Source: Bacillota bacterium
Lineage (GTDB): Bacteria > Bacillota > Sulfobacillia > Sulfobacillales > Sulfobacillaceae
Direction of reading: 5' to 3'
Assembly (NCBI GenBank): GCA_021820485.1
Contig: JAKADO010000009.1
Span: 1-55,311 of the forward strand
Length of the DNA: 55,311 bases
Part shown: one piece after another, positions 4,340 through 25,304 of the stretch
Layout: each line of letters starts with the position of its first letter
Position numbering within the stretch: position 1 is the stretch's first letter
Notes under the pieces: model-generated
What the model saw: only the letters and a program-made list of their open reading frames with translations
What the model was told of the DNA's origin: nothing
Databases searched by the model: none
Position numbers and translations under genes: made by a program

Positions 4340-4798
4340 ATGCCAACCATTGAGACGCGGTTTCACGGCACCATCACCATCGACGAGCAAGACATCCTGA
4401 CCGTTGACTATGAAATCCTGGGATTCCCTCAGGAGCGCCGTTTTGTGCTGCTGCCGCACCAGCCGGACAGCCCCTTTCTGTACCTGCAGTCTGTGACCAC
4501 CCCGGCCTTGGCCTTCGTGTGCATCGATCCTCTGTTGCGATTTCCCGAATATCAGTTGCCGGTGGAGGAACTGCCTAAAGCGTTGGGGGAACCTGTCGAT
4601 TGGGCCATCTTGTGTTTATGCACCATTGGGAATGGCCATAATCCCAGTATGAACCTCAAGAGCCCGCTCATCTTCAATCGCGGGACCCGGCATGGGGGCC
4701 AATTTGTGCTATCCTTGCCATATCCGCTTCAATATCCCTTGTTCCCCCCTCAGGGAACTCCGTCGGAGGCGCCGAGTCATGCTGGTACTCACCCGTAA
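4340..4798 (+). CDS. fliW: FliW, flagellar assembly factor / CsrA antagonist
   Basis: 152 residues. The beginning [25 protein letters not shown] matches the FliW start, in which the protein is a small beta barrel. Known FliW binds flagellin and CsrA alternately, so that CsrA is released to repress flagellin translation when flagellin accumulates. The ATG follows AAGAAGGGACACC. The last 20 bases overlap the first codons of csrA, implying translational coupling between antagonist and target. The C-terminal tail ([17 protein letters not shown]) is Pro-rich and probably unstructured. Confidence 0.93.
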
Positions 4799-5042
4799 AA
4801 TCAACGAAGCCCTCCTATTGGAGGAGGGCACCATCCGCGTTGTCGTGCTGTCAGTCCAGGGGGACCAAGTCAAATTGGGCATTGACGCACCCAAACATGT
4901 CAGCATCCTGCGGGAAGAAATAGCCCTGGCGCAGTCGCAAAACCGGGAGGCGGCCCAGTCCATCTCACCCGATGATTTAGCGCACCTTACGGAGTCGGAG
5001 AAGACGCCCCCACCTCGTCGCCGGACACCAGAATCTCAGTGA
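4779..5042 (+). CDS. csrA: CsrA, post-transcriptional regulator
   Basis: The first 55 or so residues follow CsrA closely: MLVLTRK, then [14 protein letters not shown] and an LREEI RNA-binding segment carrying the conserved Arg. CsrA binds GGA motifs in mRNA leaders and, with FliW, controls flagellin synthesis in Firmicutes. At 87 residues it is longer than the usual 61-75. The extra part is a charged, Pro/Arg-rich tail ([15 protein letters not shown]). The ATG at 4779 was chosen because it begins the conserved core. The 3' end overlaps fliN on the other strand by 56 bases. Confidence 0.95.
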
Positions 5043-5415
5043 TTTTCACCCCAAAATTGTCCCCAATGATGACAACATCGCCGCGCGCCACCAAGCGACC
5101 GTTGAGAAACAAATCAACGGGTTCTCCATAGGCGCGCTCCAGCTCAATCACGGATCCTGGGCCCACCTCCAGCACTTCTTTGACCGTCAGCTCGGTGGTG
5201 CCCAGAATCGCTTCAATGGACATGGGCACATCCCACACAAACTCCACCGATTCGGTACCCGCGGGACGGGGAGCGGACTCTTCGAGTTCCACAAAGTCCA
5301 CTTTCTTCACATCCACCATCAGCCCCGCATCCGGTTCCCCCTCCGCGACCGAATCCGAAGCGTCCACCAATGCTTGGATTTCTTCAGCGGTCAATCGTGC
5401 TGCTTTTTTCGCCAT
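4987..5415 (-). CDS. fliN: FliN, flagellar motor switch protein with N-terminal CheY-binding-type motif
   Basis: 142 residues. The C-terminal 80 are the SpoA/FliN domain ([20 protein letters not shown], then [19 protein letters not shown]). The N-terminus (residues 7-18, [12 protein letters not shown]) resembles the LSQ-EID-ALL CheY-binding peptide normally at the start of FliM and of FliY. The middle lacks the CheC-like phosphatase domain of full FliY. FliN forms the bottom of the C-ring and helps dock the FliH/FliI export complex. It is one base downstream of fliM. Its 3' end overlaps csrA antiparallel. Confidence 0.93.
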
Positions 5416-5416
5416 G

Positions 5417-6319
5417 TCATTCGTCCTCCACTCGTGAAATCACCCGCACGGCAAGCCGTCCACGCTGGCGCCCCGGCAAGACCAAAAACTTCTCCCGATT
5501 CGAGAGCCTTAAGGTCAAGGGCTGATCATACCGGCTCTTCAAGACCACGGCGTCACCCACCTTGAGCTGATCGAATTCCCCCAACGTGATGTCGGTTTTT
5601 CCCAACAGCACCGCCCCGCGTACCGGGACCGCCTCGACGTGCCGTTTCATTTCATGCGGTTTCAGCTCCACATTTTCCAATGAGCCATCGCGCATCAATT
5701 GAAACTTCACCGCCGCCTCTGCCAACGGAGCGATGTTGGCGTAGGGCCAGACAATCATCATCTGCCCCCGATTGCCGTCTAGGGTCATCTGCTGCCGGGA
5801 CACCAGAACCAAATCCCCCTCACCAGCAATCTGGGCGAACGCGGGGTTGTGCTCCATACTGGTCAATTTGGCCCGCATGGGCATGACGGGATGCCAAATG
5901 TCCCCATAGAACCCGAGAATGCGATCAAAAATGCGCCGTACGATGCTTTGCTCAATTTCGGAGAGGCGTCGGCCTGCCGCGACGCTGAGACCTGGGCCAC
6001 CCAGCGCCCGATCAATCATCGACAAGGAAATGGATGGCGTGCATTCCATCAAGGCCGTTCCGGGCAGCGGATCGGTGTTGAAAACCCCCAGCACGGCAGG
6101 CACCTTAATGGATTGAATCATATCCTCATACGAAATTTGGCTCACCGCCATTTGTTGCAACTGGACCGGTGTCCGCAAATAGGTTGAAAGAAAGTTGGCT
6201 GCGCTGCGCCAAAACGTGGTCACGATATGGGTGACCGCATCCAACTGCGCGCGGCTTAGCTGATGCGGCCGCTGAAAGTCATAGGGGCGAATCCCTTCGT
6301 GGTCTCGGACGAGGCCCAT
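5417..6319 (-). CDS. fliM: FliM, flagellar motor switch protein, short N-terminus
   Basis: 300 residues. The YDFQRP element, which in typical FliM lies about 40 residues in, is here at residues 13-18. The middle CheC-like domain is present (SISLSMIDRALGG, a GG motif for FliG contact). The C-terminus is FliN-like, with the DQLKVGDAVVLKSRYDQPLTLRL region. What is missing is the N-terminal LSQxEIDALL peptide that binds CheY~P in standard FliM. Upstream there are only 55 bases before fliL, so no longer start is hidden. FliM links FliG and FliN in the C-ring. Confidence 0.93.
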   Translation of the reverse strand: MGLVRDHEGIRPYDFQRPHQLSRAQLDAVTHIVTTFWRSAANFLSTYLRTPVQLQQMAVSQISYEDMIQSIKVPAVLGVFNTDPLPGTALMECTPSISLSMIDRALGGPGLSVAAGRRLSEIEQSIVRRIFDRILGFYGDIWHPVMPMRAKLTSMEHNPAFAQIAGEGDLVLVSRQQMTLDGNRGQMMIVWPYANIAPLAEAAVKFQLMRDGSLENVELKPHEMKRHVEAVPVRGAVLLGKTDITLGEFDQLKVGDAVVLKSRYDQPLTLRLSNREKFLVLPGRQRGRLAVRVISRVEDE

Positions 6320-6374
6320 GCGCTCCCCCCTCTCTCTCGTAATCGATCTCCAGACAGTGAGACAAGACGCAAGG

Positions 6375-6851
6375 CTACTGCGTCAAAAGGTTGGAGAAAT
6401 AGATGTCGGACACGGAATCGGGTCCGAAAATGGACTGCAGGATAGCCGACACCTGGTCCTTAAACACTGTCATCCCACCCGAACTGACCAGTTCCGAATA
6501 GGGGGTCGAACGAGCCAACGCAATCAACTGATTGCGAATTTTCGCGTCCAGCTCCGCGGAACCGGTCCCCGAGCCTCCGCTGGCTGCCGTGGCCGATCCG
6601 CCTGCCGCGGTCAGTGCCGCCGGCATCACCTCGAACTCCAAGTCGAAACTGACGTAATGGCTGTTGCCCGCCAGATTGCTTTGAATGCTGGTCTCCGTAA
6701 TGGCCACAGCAGTCTTGGAGCTGAACGGCACCGCCTCAATGACGGGGGGTGGGGTATGGCTCAGCATGGAAGGCTCTAAAAAGACAATCCCGGCCGCCCC
6801 CGCGCCGAGTCCAACGATGAAAATAATCACGAAGAGCAGAATCTTCTTCAA
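6375..6851 (-). CDS. fliL: FliL, stator-associated flagellar membrane protein
   Basis: 158 residues with one N-terminal membrane helix (about residues 3-25, [20 protein letters not shown]). An extracytoplasmic domain follows, with the FliL pattern of [11 protein letters not shown] and a closing helix ([14 protein letters not shown]). An Ala/Gly/Ser-rich insertion ([19 protein letters not shown]) sits in the middle. FliL rings surround the MotAB stator and support torque. It opens the fliL-fliM-fliN unit, divergent from the lytic transglycosylase gene. Confidence 0.85.
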
Positions 6852-6995
6852 TGGGGTCCCCTCTTTGCATGGCTAGCTCTCATGGTGTCGTTCCATTGCC
6901 AGTCGCCTCTATACGTTCCGAGACAACCGCCCTCTATTCCACAATTCGCCATAATTCGGGGAAATTCCTTCGCCGTGGAGCATATTTCGCAGCGC

Positions 6996-7022
6996 TAAAC
7001 TGGGCAAAATTCCCGCTAAAAC
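6996..7022 (+). promoter_or_regulatory. Possible sigma-D (FliA) type promoter before the transglycosylase gene
   Basis: TAAA at 6996-6999, a 15-base spacer and GCTAAAAC at 7015-7022 resemble the flagellar sigma pattern TAAA-N15-GCCGATAA, with a full -35 but only half of the -10 matched. The 220-base gap between fliL and the transglycosylase also has clustered AATTC elements at 6944-6967. Confidence 0.25.
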
Positions 7023-7072
7023 CTTCGACGTTGGGGGACAGCTTCGGTACACTAAACCCGGAGGGAAGCGCC

Positions 7073-7669
7073 ATGGATACCTATTTGTTGTGGGCATTGA
7101 ATACGCTGTTTCAAGAATTGCTGGATCCGTTGGCCCAGAACGCGTCTTCCAACTCCAACACCCTGTTTCAGTCGCTGTTGGCGCCACTGAGCGCGCCCTC
7201 AGCCAATGGAGCCGCGGCCACCAGCCAGCCTGTTCCGGAAGCCGGCGCATCCGCCAGCGTGCAAAGCGCCATTCAGTCCGCAGCTGCTTCAACTGGCCTT
7301 TCTCCCGCGTTGTTAAAAGCGGTGGCCAGCGTCGAATCGGGATTGAATCCCAGCGCAGTCAGTTCGGCCGGCGCCATTGGTTTAATGCAACTCATGCCTG
7401 GAACCGCGGCAGAACTGGGCGTCAACCCTGAAAACGCCGCCCAAAATGCTTTAGGCGGCGCAGAATATTTGAAGAGCCTGCTCAATCACTTCGGACAGAA
7501 CCTCTCGCTCGCCTTGGCCGCATACAATGCCGGTCCAGGGGCTGTCGAACAATATGGCGGCATCCCGCCCTACGCCCAGACGGAAAACTACGTCAAGTCT
7601 GTTCTTCAGGCATATCAGGCCCAGAGCGGCCCCCCTGCTACACCTGCAAGTTCGTCGTGGACTGGATGA
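7073..7669 (+). CDS. Lytic transglycosylase, SLT (goose-lysozyme-like) domain
   Basis: 198 residues. After a low-complexity Ala/Ser-rich linker, the domain from about residue 65 shows the SLT motifs: [14 protein letters not shown] with the catalytic Glu in VESGLN, then [13 protein letters not shown], then [12 protein letters not shown]. These enzymes cleave peptidoglycan between MurNAc and GlcNAc. Those in flagellar loci open the wall for rod passage. No clear signal peptide is seen, so flagellar-type export or direct translocation is possible. ATG at 7073 follows GGAGGG at 7060-7065. An upstream extension to 6851 was rejected. The 3' end overlaps flhP antiparallel by 32 bases. Confidence 0.9.
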
Positions 7670-9163: not shown

Positions 9164-10075
9164 TTAAATGGGATCGCGGTTAATTTCCCGCGGCCAATTC
9201 TCCACCAGACGCTTGACGAAAGCCCCCCACCCCCCGCGGCGCGGTGGCGGCACACGATGCAGAATCCGATCCGCGATGTCTCCCAGGTCGAAGGCCGCCT
9301 CGCTATGCGGATAGGCGGTGTAGAACGGCACCTGTCTCAGCACCGAACGCGTCACCACCGGATCCTCCATCACTTGTCCCAAAAACTCGACAGGCTGGCC
9401 CAGAGCCTTTTCGGCCAAGTCAGTCAATCGGGTGCCCAGTCGCGATCCCTGCTCACGGCTCTGAATGCGATTCATCACCAACTTCAGGGCCACCCGTCCA
9501 TCCTGCTCCCAGACGGCCTTAATAAGGCCATAGGCATCCGCCAAAGCGGTCGGCTCAGGGTTGGTGACCACCAGCGCTTCGTCCGCCGCCAGCACAAAAG
9601 CCAGCACGCTGTCCGAAATCCCTGCGGACGTGTCGATAAGGAGCCAGTCGCACTCCCCCTCAAGCTCCTGAAACCCCTCAATGATATGAGAAATCTCGAC
9701 ACCGTCCAACCGAGCCAACTCGGTGATGCCGGAGCCTCCTGGGATGACGCGGATGCCGTTGGGCCCCTGCTGCAATGTATCCCGCAAGGTCACCCGTTTC
9801 TCAACCACATCCCACAGCGTGTAAACCGGTTCATAACCTAGCATAATATTGATATTGGCCAAACCCAAATCTGCGTCGAGAATAACCACGCGTTGACTTC
9901 TTTCGGATAGCGCCAGCGCCAAATTGAGCACCAAACTGGACTTGCCCACGCCACCTTTGCCAGAGGTGACGGCCAGCACGCGCCCTCCCGTCAGCCTCTG
10001 ATGCAACACCTCACGGGTCGCTTGGTCCGCCTTAGCCTTCACCCAACTCCGCAACGCGTCGCCTTGGTTCGCCAT
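9164..10075 (-). CDS. flhG: FlhG (YlxH), MinD-like ATPase controlling flagellar number and place
   Basis: 303 residues. The P-loop is the deviant Walker A SGKGGVGKS (residues 38-46), followed by VILDADLGLANINIML, the MinD-type switch I region. Near the N-terminus NQGDALRSW resembles the DQAxxLR helix with which FlhG stimulates the FlhF GTPase. The C-terminus (FVKRLVENWPREI) may form the amphipathic membrane helix. FlhG binds FliM/FliN and limits basal-body number. It is two bases downstream of flhF, as usual. Confidence 0.94.
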   Translation of the reverse strand: MANQGDALRSWVKAKADQATREVLHQRLTGGRVLAVTSGKGGVGKSSLVLNLALALSERSQRVVILDADLGLANINIMLGYEPVYTLWDVVEKRVTLRDTLQQGPNGIRVIPGGSGITELARLDGVEISHIIEGFQELEGECDWLLIDTSAGISDSVLAFVLAADEALVVTNPEPTALADAYGLIKAVWEQDGRVALKLVMNRIQSREQGSRLGTRLTDLAEKALGQPVEFLGQVMEDPVVTRSVLRQVPFYTAYPHSEAAFDLGDIADRILHRVPPPRRGGWGAFVKRLVENWPREINRDPI

Positions 10076-16749: not shown

Positions 16750-17697
16750 ATGATTCTTGTCAGCGAGTGGATTGATGCCCGGGGGCTGGAACTCTTGGAG
16801 CAATTGCCGTACCCAACCCAGTACCGTCCCGAACTCTGGGGTGACGAGGCGGAGTTAATTCATGCATTGAGCGAGGCGCAAGCTCTGGTCGTACGCAACC
16901 GGACGCGGGTGACCCCCGAAGTGCTGGATCGCGCCCGAGGCCTCAAGGTCATCGGCCGCCTCGGGGTAGGCCTCGACAATATCGACCTCGACGCCTGCCG
17001 TGAACGCCGCATTGCCGTCGTCTACGCACGGGGGGCAAACGCCATCGCCGTGGTCGAGTACGTGTTAGGAGCCCTATTGTACAGCGCGCGGCCCTGGCTG
17101 GATTGGACGGACCAAACCAAGGCGGGTGCTTGGGCGCGCCACTTGGGTGGACACGAAGTCCATGGCAAAACCCTCGGCGTGGTAGGGCTGGGGGACATCG
17201 GGAGCCGCGTGGCGCGGGCAGCCCGCCATCTCGGCATGACGGTCGAAGCGTATGATCCCCACTTAGCGCCATTTCACGCCCTTATTGCGGACGGTACTGT
17301 CATCCCCCGGCCGACTCTGGAAGAGTTGCTTCAAAACGCCGATGTGCTCACGCTGCACGCGCCGCTGCGGCTGGAAACGCGGCACCTGTTAAACCACCAG
17401 ACATTTTCCTTCATGAAGCCTGGCATGATACTCATCAATACGGCCCGCGGGGGACTCATCGATGAATCAGCCTTATTGGACGCCTTGGAGCAAGGCCTCG
17501 TCCGAGCAGCGTTTCTGGACGTACGCGAAAACGAGCCCCCCATTAACCCCGATCCGCTCGCCAATTGCGCTAACGTCTATCCCACGCCGCATCTTGCCGG
17601 ACTCACAGAGGAGGCGCTGGCCCGAACCACAGCATTGGTGTTGGAGGACGTCGTCCGTGTGCTGTCCGAACGTCCGCCGCGCTCTCCGGTTCGTTAG
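16750..17697 (+). CDS. D-isomer-specific 2-hydroxyacid dehydrogenase (SerA-like)
   Basis: 315 residues. The NAD-binding motif is VVGLGDIGSRVARAARH (GxGxxG at 146-151) with acidic D170 at the end of the second strand, indicating NAD preference. The catalytic set is Arg233 (NTARGG), Glu262 (ENEPP) and His281 (TPHLAG). The family reduces 2-oxo acids or oxidises D-2-hydroxy acids. 3-phosphoglycerate dehydrogenase is one possibility, but no ACT domain is present. The exact substrate is open. It is transcribed away from fliO and ends before a terminator. Confidence 0.88.
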   Translation: MILVSEWIDARGLELLEQLPYPTQYRPELWGDEAELIHALSEAQALVVRNRTRVTPEVLDRARGLKVIGRLGVGLDNIDLDACRERRIAVVYARGANAIAVVEYVLGALLYSARPWLDWTDQTKAGAWARHLGGHEVHGKTLGVVGLGDIGSRVARAARHLGMTVEAYDPHLAPFHALIADGTVIPRPTLEELLQNADVLTLHAPLRLETRHLLNHQTFSFMKPGMILINTARGGLIDESALLDALEQGLVRAAFLDVRENEPPINPDPLANCANVYPTPHLAGLTEEALARTTALVLEDVVRVLSERPPRSPVR

Positions 17698-17700
17698 CGC

Positions 17701-17730
17701 AGCAAAAGAAGGCGGGAGAGTTCCCGCCTT
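17701..17730 (-). terminator. Rho-independent terminator after the amidohydrolase gene
   Basis: Hairpin AAGGCGGGA/TCCCGCCTT with a four-base loop (17709-17730). On the minus strand it is followed by TTCTTTTGCT, so it should end the amidohydrolase transcript. It also lies just after the dehydrogenase gene on the plus strand, but no T run follows there. Confidence 0.75.
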
Positions 17731-17751
17731 CCGGAAGAGCCTCCGCGACGT

Positions 17752-18909
17752 TTACGATCGCAAAGCTAGCGAAGCGAAGCCGGCGGCACCAGCCCGGAGC
17801 CCACGCTCGTCCACAATCAAACCGGCCGAGTGAAGCCCGGTGGTGAATTGATCGCCAACAATCCCCACGTTCAGACACACGCCCGGAACCCGTTCGGCGA
17901 CATAAGCGAAGTCTTCCACGCCCAACGTCGGATCAATTTGACGAACGGCGTCGCCGCCCAACTCCGACTGCAATACGGACTCCACGCGTCGGGACCAACT
18001 GATATCTGCTACCAGCGGAGGATACCCGGGATCCATGACTAATTCCGCCTTTGCGCCATACGTGCCGGTGACCGACTCAACCACCTCGCGAAACCGCCGG
18101 ACCGCTCGTTCACGCGTGGCCGGCGTCATCGTCCGAATCGTTCCCGTCAGGTCCACACGATCTGCAATCACATTTTCCCGGTAGCCTCCGTGAATGGTGC
18201 CAAAACTGATGACCAGCGGGTCAAAGGAATCCTGCTCGCGGCTTACAATCCCTTGAACGGCCTGAATCACCGCTGAGGCTACATAAATTGCATCGACGCC
18301 CACATGCGGTGTTGAGCCATGGCCTCCCCGACCGAGAATGCTTAAGGTGAAGTCATCGCAGGCTCCCATCGCCGGACCCTCGCGCAACCCGATGACCCCA
18401 TAAGGCAGGTCGGAACTTACGTGCACCATCGCCGCTTCTTTGACGGGCGGGTCATTGAGCACGCCGGCCTCAATCATGGGAAGCGCGCCGCCCGGCCCTT
18501 CCTCGGCAGGCTGGAACATCAGCACCACCGGACGTGGCAGTTCTGCTTCATGGGCCTTCAAATAGCGTGCCGCTCCCAAGAGCATGGCGGTGTGGCAATC
18601 ATGCCCGCAGGCATGCATGCGGCCCGGTATCTCCGAGCGAAAGGGCAGATCATTGTTCTCCAATATTGGCAGCGCGTCCATGTCGGCCCGCAGAAGGATG
18701 GCCTCTCCGGCCTTCTCTGATCCAATTACGGCCTTGACCCCATGAAGAATCGGGCGGGTATGCTGAATGCCAAGCGAATCCAGAGCATCCTCGATTAGCT
18801 TCTGGGTTTCGGGTGTGTCCAATCCCAACTCCGGATGGCGGTGAATGCGACGGCGGAGTTCAATCATCCAAGGTTCAATTTCTTCCCACAAGGTGTCGTT
18901 GATAATCAC
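17752..18909 (-). CDS. M20-family amidohydrolase (N-acyl amino acid / hippurate hydrolase-like)
   Basis: 385 residues from a GTG at 18909, which has GAGGAGG eight bases upstream. An earlier ATG at 18951 would add a Cys-rich segment without homology. Family motifs are RRRIHRHPELG near the start, LRADMDALPI, the metal-binding HACGHDCHTAMLLG, the general-base region FQPAEEGPGGA and the closing GLHSAG. M20D enzymes remove acyl groups from amino acids such as N-acetyl amino acids or hippurate. Beside a peptide transporter it probably helps recover amino acids. The precise substrate cannot be read from sequence. Confidence 0.88.
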   Translation of the reverse strand: MIINDTLWEEIEPWMIELRRRIHRHPELGLDTPETQKLIEDALDSLGIQHTRPILHGVKAVIGSEKAGEAILLRADMDALPILENNDLPFRSEIPGRMHACGHDCHTAMLLGAARYLKAHEAELPRPVVLMFQPAEEGPGGALPMIEAGVLNDPPVKEAAMVHVSSDLPYGVIGLREGPAMGACDDFTLSILGRGGHGSTPHVGVDAIYVASAVIQAVQGIVSREQDSFDPLVISFGTIHGGYRENVIADRVDLTGTIRTMTPATRERAVRRFREVVESVTGTYGAKAELVMDPGYPPLVADISWSRRVESVLQSELGGDAVRQIDPTLGVEDFAYVAERVPGVCLNVGIVGDQFTTGLHSAGLIVDERGLRAGAAGFASLALRS

Positions 18910-18929
18910 GTTGGTCGCCTCCTCGCAAA

Positions 18930-18964
18930 AGCAAAACGAGGGTCTCCACATCGTGGGACCCTCG
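18930..18964 (-). terminator. Terminator downstream of the peptide permease pair
   Basis: On the minus strand, CGAGGGTC and GACCCTCG form an imperfect stem (18937-18964) followed by TTTTGCTTTTG. It lies between the dppB-like gene and the amidohydrolase start, so the hydrolase is probably transcribed apart from the permeases or by read-through. Confidence 0.75.
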
Positions 18965-18974
18965 GCGATTGCCT

Positions 18975-19928
18975 TTAGGTGTATTTGATTCGGGGGTCGA
19001 TAAGTCCGTACAACAGGTCCGCAAACAGGTTGCCAAGAATGGTCAGCAGCCCTGTCAGAACGACCACCCCGAGAATGATGGGATAGTCACGCTGCAATGC
19101 GGCGTTCCAGAAGAGAAGCCCCATGCCGGGATAGTTGAAGACCACTTCCACGTAGAGAGCTCCCGCGAACAAACTGGGCAAGGAGAAGCCCAGCAGGGTA
19201 ATCAACGGCAGGATGGAGTTGCGAAGGCCATGCTTCATGACCACCCATCCTTCGCTAACGCCCTTGGAGCGCGCGGTGCGAATGTAGTCTTGCACCAATG
19301 TCTCGTCCATGGAGGTGCGCATATACTGGGCCCAACCGGCGATTGTCACCAAGACAATGGTGACTACCGGAAGCGTCGTGTGGGCAATCCACGAACCAAA
19401 CCCAGGATTCGGGTTCATCGGGTTGGACAGGCCGCCCGAAGGGAACCAGTTGAGGTACACGGAAAACACGAGCACCATCATAATGCCCAGCCAGAAGGTC
19501 GGCATTGCATAGAAGAAGTACGTTACCGACGTCGCCACGTAGTCGAACACGGAATTCTTATAGTACGCCTGAATGCTGCCCAGAATGACCGAGCCGATAT
19601 GCGCCACTAAGATGCCGATGCCGACGATGGCCAGCGTGCGCGGCATGTTGATGGAAATCAGACTCCACACGGACTGATTGTAAAAATACGACGTTCCGAG
19701 ATTGCCATGGAGCAGTTGGATCAGCCAAATACCGTACTGCACAATAATCGGCTTGTTCAATCCATAAATGCGATCAATCTCAGCAATCTTCTGAGGTGTC
19801 GCTTTCGCGCCAAGCATTGCCTGCGCCGGACCCCCGGGGACAATGTGGACCAAGAAGAAGCCGATGATGGTAATTCCGATCATGGCCGGAATGGACTGAA
19901 TCAATCGGTACAAAATATACTTTGCCAC
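18975..19928 (-). CDS. ABC peptide transporter permease (DppB/OppB type)
   Basis: 317 residues with six membrane helices. The N-terminal LIQSIPAMIGITIIGFFLVHIVPGGP is the DppB-type opening. The ATPase-contact EAA-type loop is YIRTARSKGVSEGWVVMKHGLRNSILP. It would form the channel with the DppC-like partner upstream. No ATPase gene lies nearby, so these permeases must use ATPases coded elsewhere. The solute-binding gene is 3 kb away on the other strand. The ATG follows AAGGAGGGGAAAACGTGGC-type spacing. Confidence 0.92.
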   Translation of the reverse strand: MAKYILYRLIQSIPAMIGITIIGFFLVHIVPGGPAQAMLGAKATPQKIAEIDRIYGLNKPIIVQYGIWLIQLLHGNLGTSYFYNQSVWSLISINMPRTLAIVGIGILVAHIGSVILGSIQAYYKNSVFDYVATSVTYFFYAMPTFWLGIMMVLVFSVYLNWFPSGGLSNPMNPNPGFGSWIAHTTLPVVTIVLVTIAGWAQYMRTSMDETLVQDYIRTARSKGVSEGWVVMKHGLRNSILPLITLLGFSLPSLFAGALYVEVVFNYPGMGLLFWNAALQRDYPIILGVVVLTGLLTILGNLFADLLYGLIDPRIKYT

Positions 19929-19940
19929 GTTTTCCCCTCC

Positions 19941-20837
19941 TTACCGTCGCAGACGCGGGTCATAGGCCTGTTGCAAAGCCGTGCCAATGAAGTTGACGCT
20001 GAGCTCTGTGAACAAAATGGCCAAGCCGGGCGGATAAATCAGCCACCATGCGTTTTGGAACATGTAGGTCATGCTGTCGGACAGCATTTGTCCCCAGTTG
20101 GGCTGCGGCGGCGGAAGGCCCAGTCCCAAGAAGCTTAACCCGGCTACGGTGAGAATCGAGTTGGCCACCTGCAAGCTCGTCGATACCACCACCACGCCGG
20201 TCACGTTGGGCAGCAGGTGGCGAATCATGATGCGGGTGTTTCCCGATCCCAACGCGCGCGCTGCCTCAACATATTCACGGTTTTTCAAGGAAAGCACCTC
20301 GCCGCGCACCAAACGGGCGACGCCAAACCATGACACGACCGCAATGACGAAGGTCAAAAGCAACGCACTCGGCTTGAAGACCGAGTCCAAGAAAAGCAGA
20401 AAGAAAAGGCTGGGGATGGCGTATAGCACATCAACCACACGCATCATGACCACGTCGACGAAGCCGCCGGCATAGCCGCTCACCAATCCATACAATACCC
20501 CGATCACCATCGACACAATGGCCGAAGCGAAACCTACTTCCAGTGCCGATTGACCGCCTTTCATCAGACGGATGAGATTGTCGCGCCCCAAACTGTCTGT
20601 CCCTAAGGGATATTTCGAGTTGGGCGGCGACAAAGCAGCCGTCAGGTGGGGCGTCAGGTCGTTCACGTGGTAGAAAATCGGCCCCACAAACGAAAACAGC
20701 ACTAACAGAAGCAGCACGATGACCCCGATCCAGGCCAACGGGTTGCTCCAAAAGGTTCGCCATTCACGGGACGGACCTTCCCGCTCGACCGCGGCTGGCG
20801 AAGGGGGACTTAGTTGAAGCTCGGGCGTCGTTGCCAT
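19941..20837 (-). CDS. ABC peptide transporter permease (DppC/OppC type)
   Basis: 298 residues. A cytoplasmic N-terminus (about 30 residues, Pro/Ser-rich) is followed by the OppC_N helix (NPLAWIGVIVLLLLVLFSFVG), the PLGTDSLGRDNLIRLMKGGQ motif typical of DppC, and the EAA loop YVEAARALGSGNTRIMIRHLLPN. AGGAGGACGGTT precedes the ATG. It is the first gene of the two-permease unit, 12 bases before dppB. It is divergent from the lipoprotein gene across a 360-base gap. Confidence 0.93.
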   Translation of the reverse strand: MATTPELQLSPPSPAAVEREGPSREWRTFWSNPLAWIGVIVLLLLVLFSFVGPIFYHVNDLTPHLTAALSPPNSKYPLGTDSLGRDNLIRLMKGGQSALEVGFASAIVSMVIGVLYGLVSGYAGGFVDVVMMRVVDVLYAIPSLFFLLFLDSVFKPSALLLTFVIAVVSWFGVARLVRGEVLSLKNREYVEAARALGSGNTRIMIRHLLPNVTGVVVVSTSLQVANSILTVAGLSFLGLGLPPPQPNWGQMLSDSMTYMFQNAWWLIYPPGLAILFTELSVNFIGTALQQAYDPRLRR

Positions 20838-21198
20838 AACCGTCCTCCTATATCACTCTAAGATCAACACACCGGACCCCAAACGAGCGGCCCGGATTGG
20901 TCTCGCTTGCCTCACGCTGCGGAAGGAGGATGCGGATAGAACCCTTTTGCCTCCTAAAGCACGAGAAGTATTCGCGGTCCACACGGACAATTCCTGTCGG
21001 AACCGTTACCGAAATCCAAAAAAATGGACTGTTGCGATGCGGGAATTGGTGGAGAGGGCGCCACATTTATGGTTTTCTGGCCCGCTCCCCCAACAAACTT
21101 CGCTAATTTTCGCCAAAGCCCCAAGGGATTTTTATCTTATGGCTTCGCGAATTTTTTCTGGACGGGACACATGGTATCATAACCAAGACACTCGAATC
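20838..21198. other. Divergent intergenic region (about 360 bases)
   Basis: This gap separates the dppC-like gene (minus) from the lipoprotein gene (plus). No gene is supported in it. Its right half is AT-rich and holds two near-identical elements, TTCGCTAATTTT (about 21105) and TTCGCGAATTTT (about 21146), some 40 bases apart. A short hairpin GTCC/GGAC is near 20974. It likely holds promoters for both flanking units, but no clear -35/-10 pair was found. Confidence 0.4.
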
Positions 21199-21720
21199 AT
21201 GGGCTTGGAGGTGGAGATTATTCCCTCTCGATTATGGAGCGCGCTTGCCGCCATTGGCGCCACGCTCTGGCTGACCGGTTGTGGATCGTCGTCCCCAAAC
21301 CCACCCGCTACACTGCCATCGGCACAAACCTCTGCGGCTTTGCTGCACATCGGTGCCGTCACCTTGACCGAAGGCGCCGTTTGGCAGCTCAACAATCCCG
21401 GAGGCGGCACCCCGCGGGAATCCTTGACCATTCAGTCCATCCACGGCCACCAGTTAAGCGCCGTCGTATACCTCGGCGAATTTGGTTCCCTAATCCAGGC
21501 CAATCTTAAGGGCACCTGGCACACCGCGAAATCCCTGACACTTTCTGGAACATTGTCGGAATCCACCGTAACCGGCAGCGCCAAGTCCGTGCCCATTCAA
21601 ATGCTGCTTCAACCCGTGAAACCGCACACGCTCTGGGTTACGCAAAACATCCCTGGTGATACCGTCAACTCTTTCAGCCAAATTCCATTTCAGGAGACCT
21701 CCTCGAACAGCGGGTCTTGA
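21199..21720 (+). CDS. Hypothetical lipoprotein
   Basis: Up to 173 residues. A hydrophobic stretch (LWSALAAIGATLW) ends in the lipobox LTGC, then a Ser/Pro/Thr-rich linker and a beta-strand-rich domain of about 120 residues. No known family is recognised. ATG at 21199 has no ribosome site. A strong GGAGGTGG lies at 21206-21213, after which the in-frame codons are ATT ATT, so the true start may be a rare ATT at 21217 or 21220. Its place between peptide permeases and an amino-acid permease suggests a cell-surface role. Confidence 0.6.
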   Translation: MGLEVEIIPSRLWSALAAIGATLWLTGCGSSSPNPPATLPSAQTSAALLHIGAVTLTEGAVWQLNNPGGGTPRESLTIQSIHGHQLSAVVYLGEFGSLIQANLKGTWHTAKSLTLSGTLSESTVTGSAKSVPIQMLLQPVKPHTLWVTQNIPGDTVNSFSQIPFQETSSNSGS

Positions 21721-21744
21721 CAATCCAGCAAAACCGCGTAAAGT
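21717..21744 (+). promoter_or_regulatory. Possible promoter of the amino-acid permease gene
   Basis: TTGACA at 21717-21722, a 16-base spacer and TAAAGT at 21739-21744. The -35 is perfect and contains the stop codon of the lipoprotein gene. The -10 matches four of six positions. Confidence 0.4.
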
Positions 21745-21753
21745 GGCTTCCTG

Positions 21754-23388
21754 TTGATTTTACCCTATTTCATTAAAGCATTAGACCGTTGCGGGGATGA
21801 TTGTCATTTCACGCTTTCGCAGGGATTAGGCCTTGTGGATTTACTCATGACCGGAGTCGGCGGACTCATTGGGTCGGGGTGGCTCTTCAGCGCCATGAAC
21901 TCCTACGCCGTGGCCGAACCGGGAGCCATCGTGGCGTGGGTCATCGGCGGCTCAGCGGTCAGCGTCCTCGGTCTCAGTTTTGCAGAGCTCTCCACCATGA
22001 TTCCCGAAACAGGCGGCATCATTCGCTACCCGGACATCTCGCACGGGAGCCTGGTCAGCTGTCTGATCGGATGGGCAGTCTTGCTCTCCTATGCCGGACT
22101 TCCGGCCATCGAGGCAGAAGGTGTCATCCAGTACGCGGCGACCTATCTGCCCGGACTCTACAACGCCGCCAGCGGATCTCAGACCAGCGAAGGATTCGCC
22201 GTAGCTGTTCTCCTGGTGGCGTTGTTCTTTGCGCTCAATTACTTCGGTGTGCGACTCTATGCGCGGGTCAACACGCGACTAACCTGGATTAAGTTTGTGG
22301 AGCCCGGCCTAACCGCCATCCTCCTGTTGGCGACAGGATTTCACGGGCACAATTTCACCAATCCCTACACCGGCGGTTTTCTTCCCTATGGATGGTCTGG
22401 CGTGTTCTCGGCTGTCTCCACGGGCGGCATTATCTTTACCTTTACTGGGTATCGCACGCTATTCGACCTGGCTGGCATGGGCGAAAAACCCAGCACGGGA
22501 TTTGAGCCGCGCGCTCCTCTTGGCGCTCGCGATTGTTGGCGTCATATACCTCTTGTTGGAAGTCGCCTTTGCTGGTGCCATCCCCGCCCGTGACTTGATC
22601 CACGGGTGGGCGCGCTTGAACTTGGCCTCGCCCTATGCGAATTTGGCCATCACGCTGAATTTGGGATGGCTGGCCGTCGTCCTGTACGCCGATGCCATCG
22701 TGTCGCCCTTTGGGACGGGATTGGTCTACGCCGCTGCATTGCCGAGAAGCCTCTATGCATTCCGCCAAAACGGCTACCTCTCCCGCGCCTTGCAACGCGT
22801 GAACCGTTACGGAGCCCCGAACATCGGCATCGCCCTCTCGTTCATTGTTGGCGTTCTCTTTCTTCTGCCATTCCCCTCGTGGCAGAAGATGGTGGGCATC
22901 TTATCCAGCGCCACCATCATCGCCGATATGATAGGGCCCGTGGCGGCAGCTACCCTGCGCCGCACCGCCCCGGACGTTCCACGCCCTTTTAGAGCGCGCG
23001 GATTGGTCATTTTGGCGCCCATCGGGTTTGTTGTGGGCGGGCTTATTGAATATTGGAGTGGCTGGGACGTCAACTGGTGGATGGGCGTGCTGCTTTTGGT
23101 CGGATCGTGCTCTATCCAACTTGGGGATATCGCATGCTCGGCCGTCCGCGTCAAGACATCCGATTGGCGTTCTGGCTCCTATCCTATTTCGGCGCCATCA
23201 CGCTTCTCTCCTGGCTCGGTTCCAGCAGCTTCGGCGGCATGAATCTCATCCCCGCTCCATGGGACCAAGTGGCGGCAGCCATCGTTTCTCTGATCTCCTA
23301 TGCATGGGGCATACGATCCGGGCGTTCGGACGCCATGACATACGGAGCCCAAGACAACACTCCGAAGAGTCTTCAAGGCGCGTCCTAG
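21754..23388 (+). pseudogene. APC-family amino-acid permease with two compensating frameshifts
   Basis: Three open segments make one permease. The first (from TTG 21754) holds GLGLVDLLMTGVGGLIGSGW through FTFTGYRTLFDLAG. The second frame continues with NPARDLSRALLLALAIVGVIY to WWMGVLLLVG, and the third, back in the first frame, carries YPTWGYRML to the stop at 23388. Removing one A from the run at 22484-22488 joins segments one and two as GENPARDL. Adding one G at 23102-23103 joins two and three as VGIVLYPTW. The start is unclear, since no ribosome site precedes TTG 21754. It is either a recent pseudogene or sequencing error. Confidence 0.82.
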
Positions 23389-23410
23389 TCCTTCTCTCTC
23401 TGGCACACGG

Positions 23411-23440
23411 CGACGATTCCTGATGGGAATCGTCGTTGCT
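23411..23440 (+). terminator. Terminator-like hairpin after the permease gene
   Basis: CGACGATTCC and GGGAATCGTCG form a stem with a short TGAT loop, followed by TTGCTATCTT. The tail is only moderately T-rich. It separates the permease from the peptide-binding gene. Confidence 0.55.
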
Positions 23441-23552
23441 ATCTTCATCCAACAAAAAACAGTGCGACTTTTGCAGGAATATTTCCTTCTTTATCGAACT
23501 ATAGCGTACTCCGAATATGGTTCCGCGGAGATGACAACGAGGAGGGCGCTCC

Positions 23553-25304
23553 ATGAGACAAAAATTGCTCGCCTTATGCGGTGTGGGAGCATTGACCGTA
23601 GCACTGGCTGGCTGTGGTTCGGGCGGAACATCGTCATCGGGAACTCCGACAGCGAACAGCAACACGCCCCAATCTGGCGGTACGGCGGTCTATGCGCTGC
23701 AACCGCAAACTTCTCCCAATTGGTTCTTTCCATTAATTTCGCTCTCGGCGGATACGGTCATCAATTATCAGACCGACTACATGATGTACAAGCCGTTGGT
23801 GTACTTCAACAAGCAGGATCAGCTTGACTACAAGCATTCCATCGCGAGTTCCGTGACTTGGAACAGCGCAGGCGATGTCTACACCATCAAGCTGAACCCC
23901 AAGTGGCATTGGTCCAACGGCAATCCGGTCACCGCACAAGATGTCGTGTTTACGTACAGTCTAATGCGGGCTGCGTCCCTCCCGAACACCAACTACCCGT
24001 GGACATTCGCCGGACAGGGATTTGGCGGAATGCCAAGCGTGTGGAAAAGCGTCGTCGCCCAGGGCCAGCACACCGTCGTCATTACGCTCACCCAGCCTCG
24101 CAACCCGGAATGGTTTGTGCGGAATGGCATCAACCAGATAATTCCCGTTCCCGAGTCGGTGTGGAACAAGTACCCCAACAATATCTCGCAAGAGATGGCC
24201 TTCATCAATTCGGTGGCCAACTCCCCGACCAATCCAGTCTATAGCGTGGTGGACGGGCCTTATAAGCTGCAAAGTTACCAAGCCAACAACAACTGGACCT
24301 TTGTCCCGAACCCGCAATATGACGGACACAAGTCCTACCTGAGCAAGGTTATTTTCCAGTACGAGACCTCCACCTCTGCGGAATTCGCCGCCTTGAAGAC
24401 CGGCACCCTCAACGTGGGGTACCTGGGCGTCTCGCTCTTAACGGCCAAGAATGAATTGCCGAGCGACACCCTTTCGGTTGCGTATCCCTTTGGATTTGAC
24501 TATTTCAACATCAACATGAGTCCGAACGCCCCGAACGGCATCGGGAAGGCGTTTGACACGCTGCCGGTTCGTCAGGCGCTGCAGTATGGCATCGACGAAA
24601 AGGGCATCATCCAACACATTTTCCACGGGTATGGCGTGATAGACGATTCCACGCTGGCCCCGGCGCCCAAGACCTCCTTCTTTAACCCGGCGCTGAACAC
24701 GCAGCCGTATCCGTACAACCCGGCGCTGGGGAAGAAGATTCTCGAGAAGAACGGCTGGACGATGCAAAACGGCGTGATGACCAAGAACGGCGTCAAGCTC
24801 GAGTTCACCTTGATCTACGCGTCGGGCAGCCACAGCGGCACCGACATGGTGCAGTTGATGAAGAACGACTGGGCCAAGGAAGGCATCGTGGTCAACCTCG
24901 TATCCGCCCCCTTTGACACCGTGGTCAGCTACAACCAGTCCAATGCCACCAAGTGGGCCGCGGTGGACTGGGATCAGGGCAACTTGGGCGGCTGGACCTA
25001 CGGCGAGCCCTATCCGTCGGGTGGCGGACTCTTCGGCACCGGCGGTGCGGCCAACTCCGGAGGGTACAGCAACGCGACCATGGACAGCCTCATTCAGGCT
25101 ACGTATCAGCCCGGTACCCAACAGCAGGCGCTGCAACGGCTTTACGCATACCAGATGTATGCGGCCCAGCAACTGCCCGGCGCCATCTTCCTTCCGTGGG
25201 AACCGTTGTTCAATGAGCATGCCAACAACATCCACGGAACCGTATCCACGTACAACCCCATTGGCGACGTGATTTTCCCCAACTACTGGTGGATCTCCAA
25301 GTAA
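23553..25304 (+). CDS. Oligopeptide/dipeptide-binding lipoprotein (SBP family 5)
   Basis: 583 residues. Signal peptide with lipobox LAGC at about residues 17-20, followed by a Gly/Ser/Thr-rich linker. The fold then matches the OppA/DppA family: SSVTWNSAGDVYTIKLNPKWHWSNGNPVTAQDVVFTY is the signature region. Later segments are VVDGPYKLQSYQANNNWTFVPNPQYDG and LPVRQALQYGIDEKGI. It captures peptides outside the cell and presents them to permeases such as the pair at 18975-20837. GAGGAGGG precedes the ATG, and a strong terminator follows. Confidence 0.93.
   Translation: MRQKLLALCGVGALTVALAGCGSGGTSSSGTPTANSNTPQSGGTAVYALQPQTSPNWFFPLISLSADTVINYQTDYMMYKPLVYFNKQDQLDYKHSIASSVTWNSAGDVYTIKLNPKWHWSNGNPVTAQDVVFTYSLMRAASLPNTNYPWTFAGQGFGGMPSVWKSVVAQGQHTVVITLTQPRNPEWFVRNGINQIIPVPESVWNKYPNNISQEMAFINSVANSPTNPVYSVVDGPYKLQSYQANNNWTFVPNPQYDGHKSYLSKVIFQYETSTSAEFAALKTGTLNVGYLGVSLLTAKNELPSDTLSVAYPFGFDYFNINMSPNAPNGIGKAFDTLPVRQALQYGIDEKGIIQHIFHGYGVIDDSTLAPAPKTSFFNPALNTQPYPYNPALGKKILEKNGWTMQNGVMTKNGVKLEFTLIYASGSHSGTDMVQLMKNDWAKEGIVVNLVSAPFDTVVSYNQSNATKWAAVDWDQGNLGGWTYGEPYPSGGGLFGTGGAANSGGYSNATMDSLIQATYQPGTQQQALQRLYAYQMYAAQQLPGAIFLPWEPLFNEHANNIHGTVSTYNPIGDVIFPNYWWISK

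Follow-up and report, generated by a model that had tools for sequence, protein, structure and literature searches.

According to one paper (PMC9126983), all motile bacteria have the EIDALL motif on FliM and FliY, and its occurrence on FliY is already known. FliY of Bacillus and Thermotoga combines an N-terminal EIDALL peptide, a CheC domain and a FliN domain, and in Bacillus FliM keeps a peptide of its own as well. The motors of Campylobacter and Helicobacter contain three SpoA proteins (FliM, FliN and FliY); most of their FliM proteins retain the CheY-bound EIDAL motif, and full or degenerate EIDAL motifs have been noted sporadically on FliN/FliY (PMC6946799). In the literature that we searched we did not find a report in which the peptide was lost from FliM and transferred to a chemotaxis-linked FliN paralogue, nor any such report for Sulfobacillus.

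The DNA analysed here, which we refer to as the window, is a stretch of 55,311 nucleotides from a member of the Sulfobacillaceae (GCA_021820485.1, contig JAKADO010000009.1); the genome to which it belongs measures 3.24 Mb and is 92% complete. The genes fliL, fliM and fliN are consecutive on the minus strand. The first of these (6375..6851; Pfam FliL, 8e-10) ends at 6375 and is followed, after a gap of 55 bases (6320..6374), by fliM (5417..6319, minus strand). The 300-residue FliM possesses a complete middle domain (Pfam FliM, residues 13-201, 7e-45) and SpoA domain (FliMN_C, residues 227-297, 9e-15); within the middle domain, the region of the GGxG motif, aligned to solved FliM structures, is intact and reads GGPG (residues 107-110; 5990..6001, minus strand). 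The protein lacks the N-terminal EIDALL peptide on which CheY docks. The NCBIfam fliM_switch alignment begins at model position 28, approximately the first 27 positions being absent, and the score is -23.6 bits, out of at most 39.2, against a 12-position matrix built from 39 peptides of FliM and FliY (consensus ILSQEEIDALLA) in genomes that do not belong to the class. A preliminary description of this DNA had considered FliM to be some 25-30 residues short and without the peptide and, in view of the 55-base gap, had held that this was not a start-call artefact; both points are borne out. The 21 in-frame codons upstream of the ATG hold no ATG, GTG or TTG start and no EIDALL-like string. The short start, MGLVR-(D/E)..(I/V)RPYDFQRP, i.e. 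MGLVR..(I/V)RPYDFQRPHQLS, is kept in the family, which excludes, together with the missing upstream start codon, an error of start calling or of assembly. Relatives with this FliM include Sulfobacillus harzensis, S. thermotolerans Kr1, MAGs labelled S. benefaciens and S. acidophilus, and Bacillota MAGs. A degenerate pattern search of the whole assembly likewise excluded a FliM peptide encoded elsewhere in the genome.

Adjacent to fliM lies fliN (4987..5415, minus strand), the 142-residue product of which contains a SpoA domain only (Pfam FliMN_C, residues 60-129, 6e-24; NCBIfam fliN). No Pfam match to a CheC domain was found, so that it is not a FliY, which would have a CheC-like middle with a phosphatase motif. 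Its N-terminus carries a stretch of the LTAEE type (residues 7-18; 5362..5397, minus strand) in which, relative to the canonical peptide, S is changed to T, Q to A, D to Q, and L to V; measured against the pattern [LIV]-S/T-Q-x-E-I-D/N-x-L-L, the Q, the D and the last L are missing. An AlphaFold2 model of low confidence (mean pLDDT 57.8) places a helix at residues 10-20, followed by a long low-confidence linker. This N-terminus scores 1.2 bits, whereas the FliM/FliY consensus can reach 39.2 and the canonical FliN2 peptides of the genus, described below, lie at 25-33. It outscores shuffles of the same stretch (p=0.004), which makes a distant relation to the canonical peptide credible, and in this respect the earlier reading of FliN, as a protein with a peptide-like start and no CheC-like middle, stands. 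The protein is conserved in 20 relatives and its N-terminus does not vary freely: within the motif LTAEE[IVL]xAL, residues L8, E12 and L16 are invariant among 21 sequences, and T9, E11 and A15 are at least 90% conserved. There is no association of the motif with chemotaxis genes (p=0.66). The helix is retained in genomes (G002-G005, G014-G018, G035 and G038) that have no CheA/CheW, MCP or CheB, which a role in CheY docking does not predict; its conservation seems to have a cause that is independent of CheY. A csrA-like gene downstream of fliW (4779-5042, plus strand) ends 56 bases into the 3′-end of fliN; the two genes converge and overlap, which could permit antisense effects.

A third, short FliN is encoded besides FliM and FliY in other Firmicutes (L153, L155, L157, L159, L161 and L162), where an N-terminus like LTxEEIQxLL or MTxEEIQxMM is followed by a VxxVxFxPL-type segment, in resemblance to the FliN of the window. 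Four of these (L153, L155, L157 and L159), with an LTxEEIQxL(L/V)-like N-terminus and then a VxxVxFxxL-type segment, are much like it. These Firmicutes differ from the lineage of the window in that canonical peptides are kept on FliY and FliM wherever these were read.

Exactly three SpoA (FliMN_C) proteins are encoded in the genome, as in the motors of Campylobacter and Helicobacter, namely FliM, FliN and a second FliN-type protein that we call FliN2. It was missed by the preliminary description because its gene (G000:C36, L033:7292-7741, minus strand) lies outside the window. FliN2 is 149 residues long and consists of an N-terminal LSQEEIDALL peptide, a linker and a C-terminal SpoA domain; its N-terminus reads MADANRPLSQEEIDALLAALS, also given as MADANRPLSQEEIDALLAAL. 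The codon pattern for QxEIDxL[L/I/V] has a single site in the assembly, and this is the FliN2 peptide PLSQEEIDALLAAL. With 32.6 of the possible 39.2 bits, PLSQEEIDALLA is almost the same as the consensus of FliM and FliY, agrees with the canonical pattern at each position, and corresponds to the peptide seen docked in the structures 1F4V and 4IGA; the difference is that the carrier here is a FliN paralogue.

The gene fliN2 is the last of the run cheW-cheA-cheY-HD-cheC-cheB-cheR-fliN2, from the upstream side of which an MCP gene diverges. The operon is otherwise ordinary; cheA (L033:11673-14387, minus strand) specifies Hpt and HATPase domains, two CheW domains and a C-terminal receiver. A CheY, which had been left to be found, is encoded in this run. 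It is most similar to the CheY of Thermotoga, including that of 4iga (the complex of CheY with the FliM peptide, from the paper of Ahn et al. that PMC9126983 cites), and the alignment is close through the C-terminal half. Like the FliY of Bacillus and Thermotoga, FliN2 combines a FliN-type SpoA domain with an N-terminal EIDALL peptide, the presumptive CheY input, in a system that may also include CheC activity. It differs in that no match to a CheC domain was found in its 149 residues, the FliY arrangement being absent here as well; instead, the operon has a separate gene for a CheC-like protein (L033:9661-10212, minus strand). The matches of this protein are weak (NF041093 CheC, 4e-8, under its cut-off; PDB CheC 3qta, 0.005), and the string SAMAEVGN-x22-P was read by eye in comparison with the active-site string (D/S)x3Ex2Nx22P. 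Further differences from Bacillus are the peptide-less FliM and the coexistence of FliN2 with a normal FliN; from Campylobacter and Helicobacter, the loss of the FliM motif and the linkage of the canonical copy to the che genes.

We consider it probable that, in this acid-loving Sulfobacillus-type lineage, the docking of CheY has moved off FliM and onto FliN2, a separate, chemotaxis-linked paralogue of FliN, and that the helix of the window FliN serves in assembly. From the architecture, the canonical peptide and the patterns of co-occurrence and decay, all of which are observed, we infer binding partners and ring position as follows. FliN2 would occupy FliN positions at the base of the C-ring by way of its SpoA domain, and its N-terminal peptide would tether the CheY-P generated by the CheA that this operon also encodes. 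The effect of CheY-P on FliN2 may then be transmitted to FliM and FliG via the SpoA ring, while the CheC-like protein of the operon might provide the CheY-P phosphatase activity that in Bacillus is carried by FliY. The FliN of the window would be a housekeeping C-ring subunit, its helix being a relict or re-purposed docking helix for assembly of the C-ring, most plausibly one for FlhG.

FliM, FliN and FliN2 were read in 39 genomes of the order, many of which are MAGs, and the presence of chemotaxis genes was judged from three families (CheW/CheA, MCP and CheB), which were concordant except in G037. In that genome CheW was missed at a contig end, yet an MCP and cheB/cheR, likewise at a contig end, are present; MCP and CheB were therefore searched as well, and the absence of CheW alone was dropped as proof of lost chemotaxis. 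FliM was readable in 36 genomes, and 19 of the 22 that have chemotaxis genes carry the canonical peptide, compared to 1 of the 14 that lack them (Fisher p=3e-6); these 14 have none of the three families, and most are 93-100% complete. On the FliM tree a mean of 3.3 of 4 independent pairs run in the expected direction and none in the opposite one, only four such pairs lying on supported branches, a number with which a sign test cannot reach significance. FliM is without the peptide in every genus but one, g3, and decay within a genus can be followed on either carrier. In FliN2, the congeners of G035 have PLSQAEIDALL or PLSQEEIDALL, and G035 itself has PLSPDETNTLL; in the FliM of g3, G011, which has chemotaxis genes, reads PLSQSEIDALL, compared to PLSGPEADALL in G012, which has none. 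In the che-less genera g5 and g7 the FliN2 peptide has been lost and the gene is located between fliR and fliP. In genus g9 fliN2 is found by motAB-fliFGH, outside the che operon, and the peptide is retained.

There are exceptions. No canonical peptide was found in S. harzensis (G031, 99% complete), which has a che operon and no FliN2 after cheR, nor in G001 and the 59%-complete G032, both with chemotaxis genes. Conversely, G038 has one canonical copy of FliN2 and no chemotaxis genes; the same holds for G041, a 71%-complete genome left out of the count. An apparently peptide-less FliN2 in G009 was rejected, the gene being split over two contigs with its N-terminus, PLSQAEIDALLAAL, at the end of the other contig. 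The string QREIDALL on contig C48 of G001 was discounted, since it is neither flagellar nor on a SpoA protein; a similar open reading frame with the string in G010 is recombinase-like by reading. Genus g11 (L128-L133) has two FliN2-type genes. In G038 these are a peptide-lost copy by motAB-fliFGH and the canonical copy, and in G037 and G039 one copy adjoins cheB/cheR.

The FliN2 proteins form one clade separate from FliN (SH-aLRT 100, on a short alignment), and the clade also has a member in G008, which belongs to a different family of the order. Elsewhere in the class, most genomes contain two SpoA proteins. Of 37 scorable FliM-FliN/FliY pairs from the class, at a cut-off of 10 bits, 14 carry the peptide on FliN/FliY only, 10 on both, seven on FliM only and six on neither; the class outgroups include a peptide-less FliM together with LSQEEIDALL on FliN/FliY. 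Outside the class the peptide is on FliM in 28 of 29 sampled genomes, the exception being a gene truncated at a contig end, in which SEIDMLL can still be read. The likely course of events would start with the peptide on both FliM and FliY; the FliM copy would have been lost in the class, FliY shortened to FliN, the canonical peptide taken up by FliN2 in the order, and the copy on FliN left to drift.

The preliminary description had placed the entry of the switch signal at the FliN of the window. With FliM devoid of the peptide, the signal very probably does enter via a subunit of the FliN family, and to that extent the proposal holds. That the N-terminus of the window FliN is itself the docking peptide for CheY-P, either alone or beside FliN2, we regard as unlikely. 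This helix is predicted, conserved and above its shuffles, descends from a class in which FliN/FliY often bears LSQEEIDALL, and is the sole remaining EIDALL-like helix in S. harzensis, which has its che operon but in which FliN2 was not found. Against this, three canonical residues (Q, D and the last L) are missing from it, it persists irrespective of chemotaxis genes, and a canonical peptide is available on FliN2. Still less probable, in our judgement, is a direct action of CheY-P on the FliM middle domain without any N-terminal tether, FliN2 being a mere sink for CheY-P or an adaptor of the che array. In other bacteria a two-step mechanism has been described in which the FliM middle domain provides a second site for CheY (PMC9126983), and the three genomes with chemotaxis genes and no canonical peptide could be accommodated in this way. 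However, conservation of the peptide goes mainly with chemotaxis genes, the peptide forms one protein with a C-ring (SpoA) domain, and in g9 it has been kept by a gene outside the che operon.

What the FliN helix does instead may be connected with FlhG, a MinD-like ATPase (MinD-family matches) encoded in the same cluster as fliN (9164..10075, minus strand). In Bacillus FlhG binds FliY, and in monotrichous bacteria its target is the N-terminus of FliM (PMC12826062). All 30 genomes with a close FlhG have the FliN motif, and the six without all lack it (p=5e-7); FlhG was called absent at E 1e-30 only, and G011, with a weak FlhG-like match (36% identity), was placed among the genomes without a close FlhG. 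About three changes on the tree account for these traits, and the six genomes carry divergent flagellar genes, so that the association is suggestive only. That the helix is a docking site for FlhG, a checkpoint of C-ring assembly unrelated to CheY, is compatible with docking of CheY on FliN2 and forms part of that explanation; we put it forward tentatively, since a structural role of the helix, or one involving FliH, would yield an identical pattern. The divergent fliM/fliN set without a close FlhG (L074, L075, L064, L069, L070 and L093), found in g3, g12, g14 and one genome of g1, looks like a second flagellar lineage within the order.

Docking of CheY on FliN2 would have consequences beyond this genome. 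The order and much of the surrounding class have a peptide-less FliM, and in them the tethering of CheY would be separated from FliM. The route by which a signal at the level of FliN reaches FliM and FliG in the C-ring becomes testable, as does the division between paralogues of the two known jobs of the peptide, CheY docking and FlhG-guided assembly; natural controls are at hand, as members of the group have lost their chemotaxis genes repeatedly. It is conceivable, and somewhat short of probable, that FliN2 represents an order-wide plug-in chemotaxis subunit: a che-linked FliN paralogue with the sole CheY-docking peptide, beside a FliM that has none and a FliN whose former peptide has become a docking helix for FlhG in assembly. 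Two functions that share one peptide elsewhere would then be split over two proteins.

The flagellar cluster of the window has two further features. An open reading frame resembling a lytic transglycosylase (SLT; 6851-7669, plus strand) lies between fliL and flgG on the opposite strand. At approximately 16750-25304 the cluster is split by dehydrogenase-like, amidohydrolase-like and oligopeptide-transport-like genes, after which it continues with flgE, flgD and fliK.
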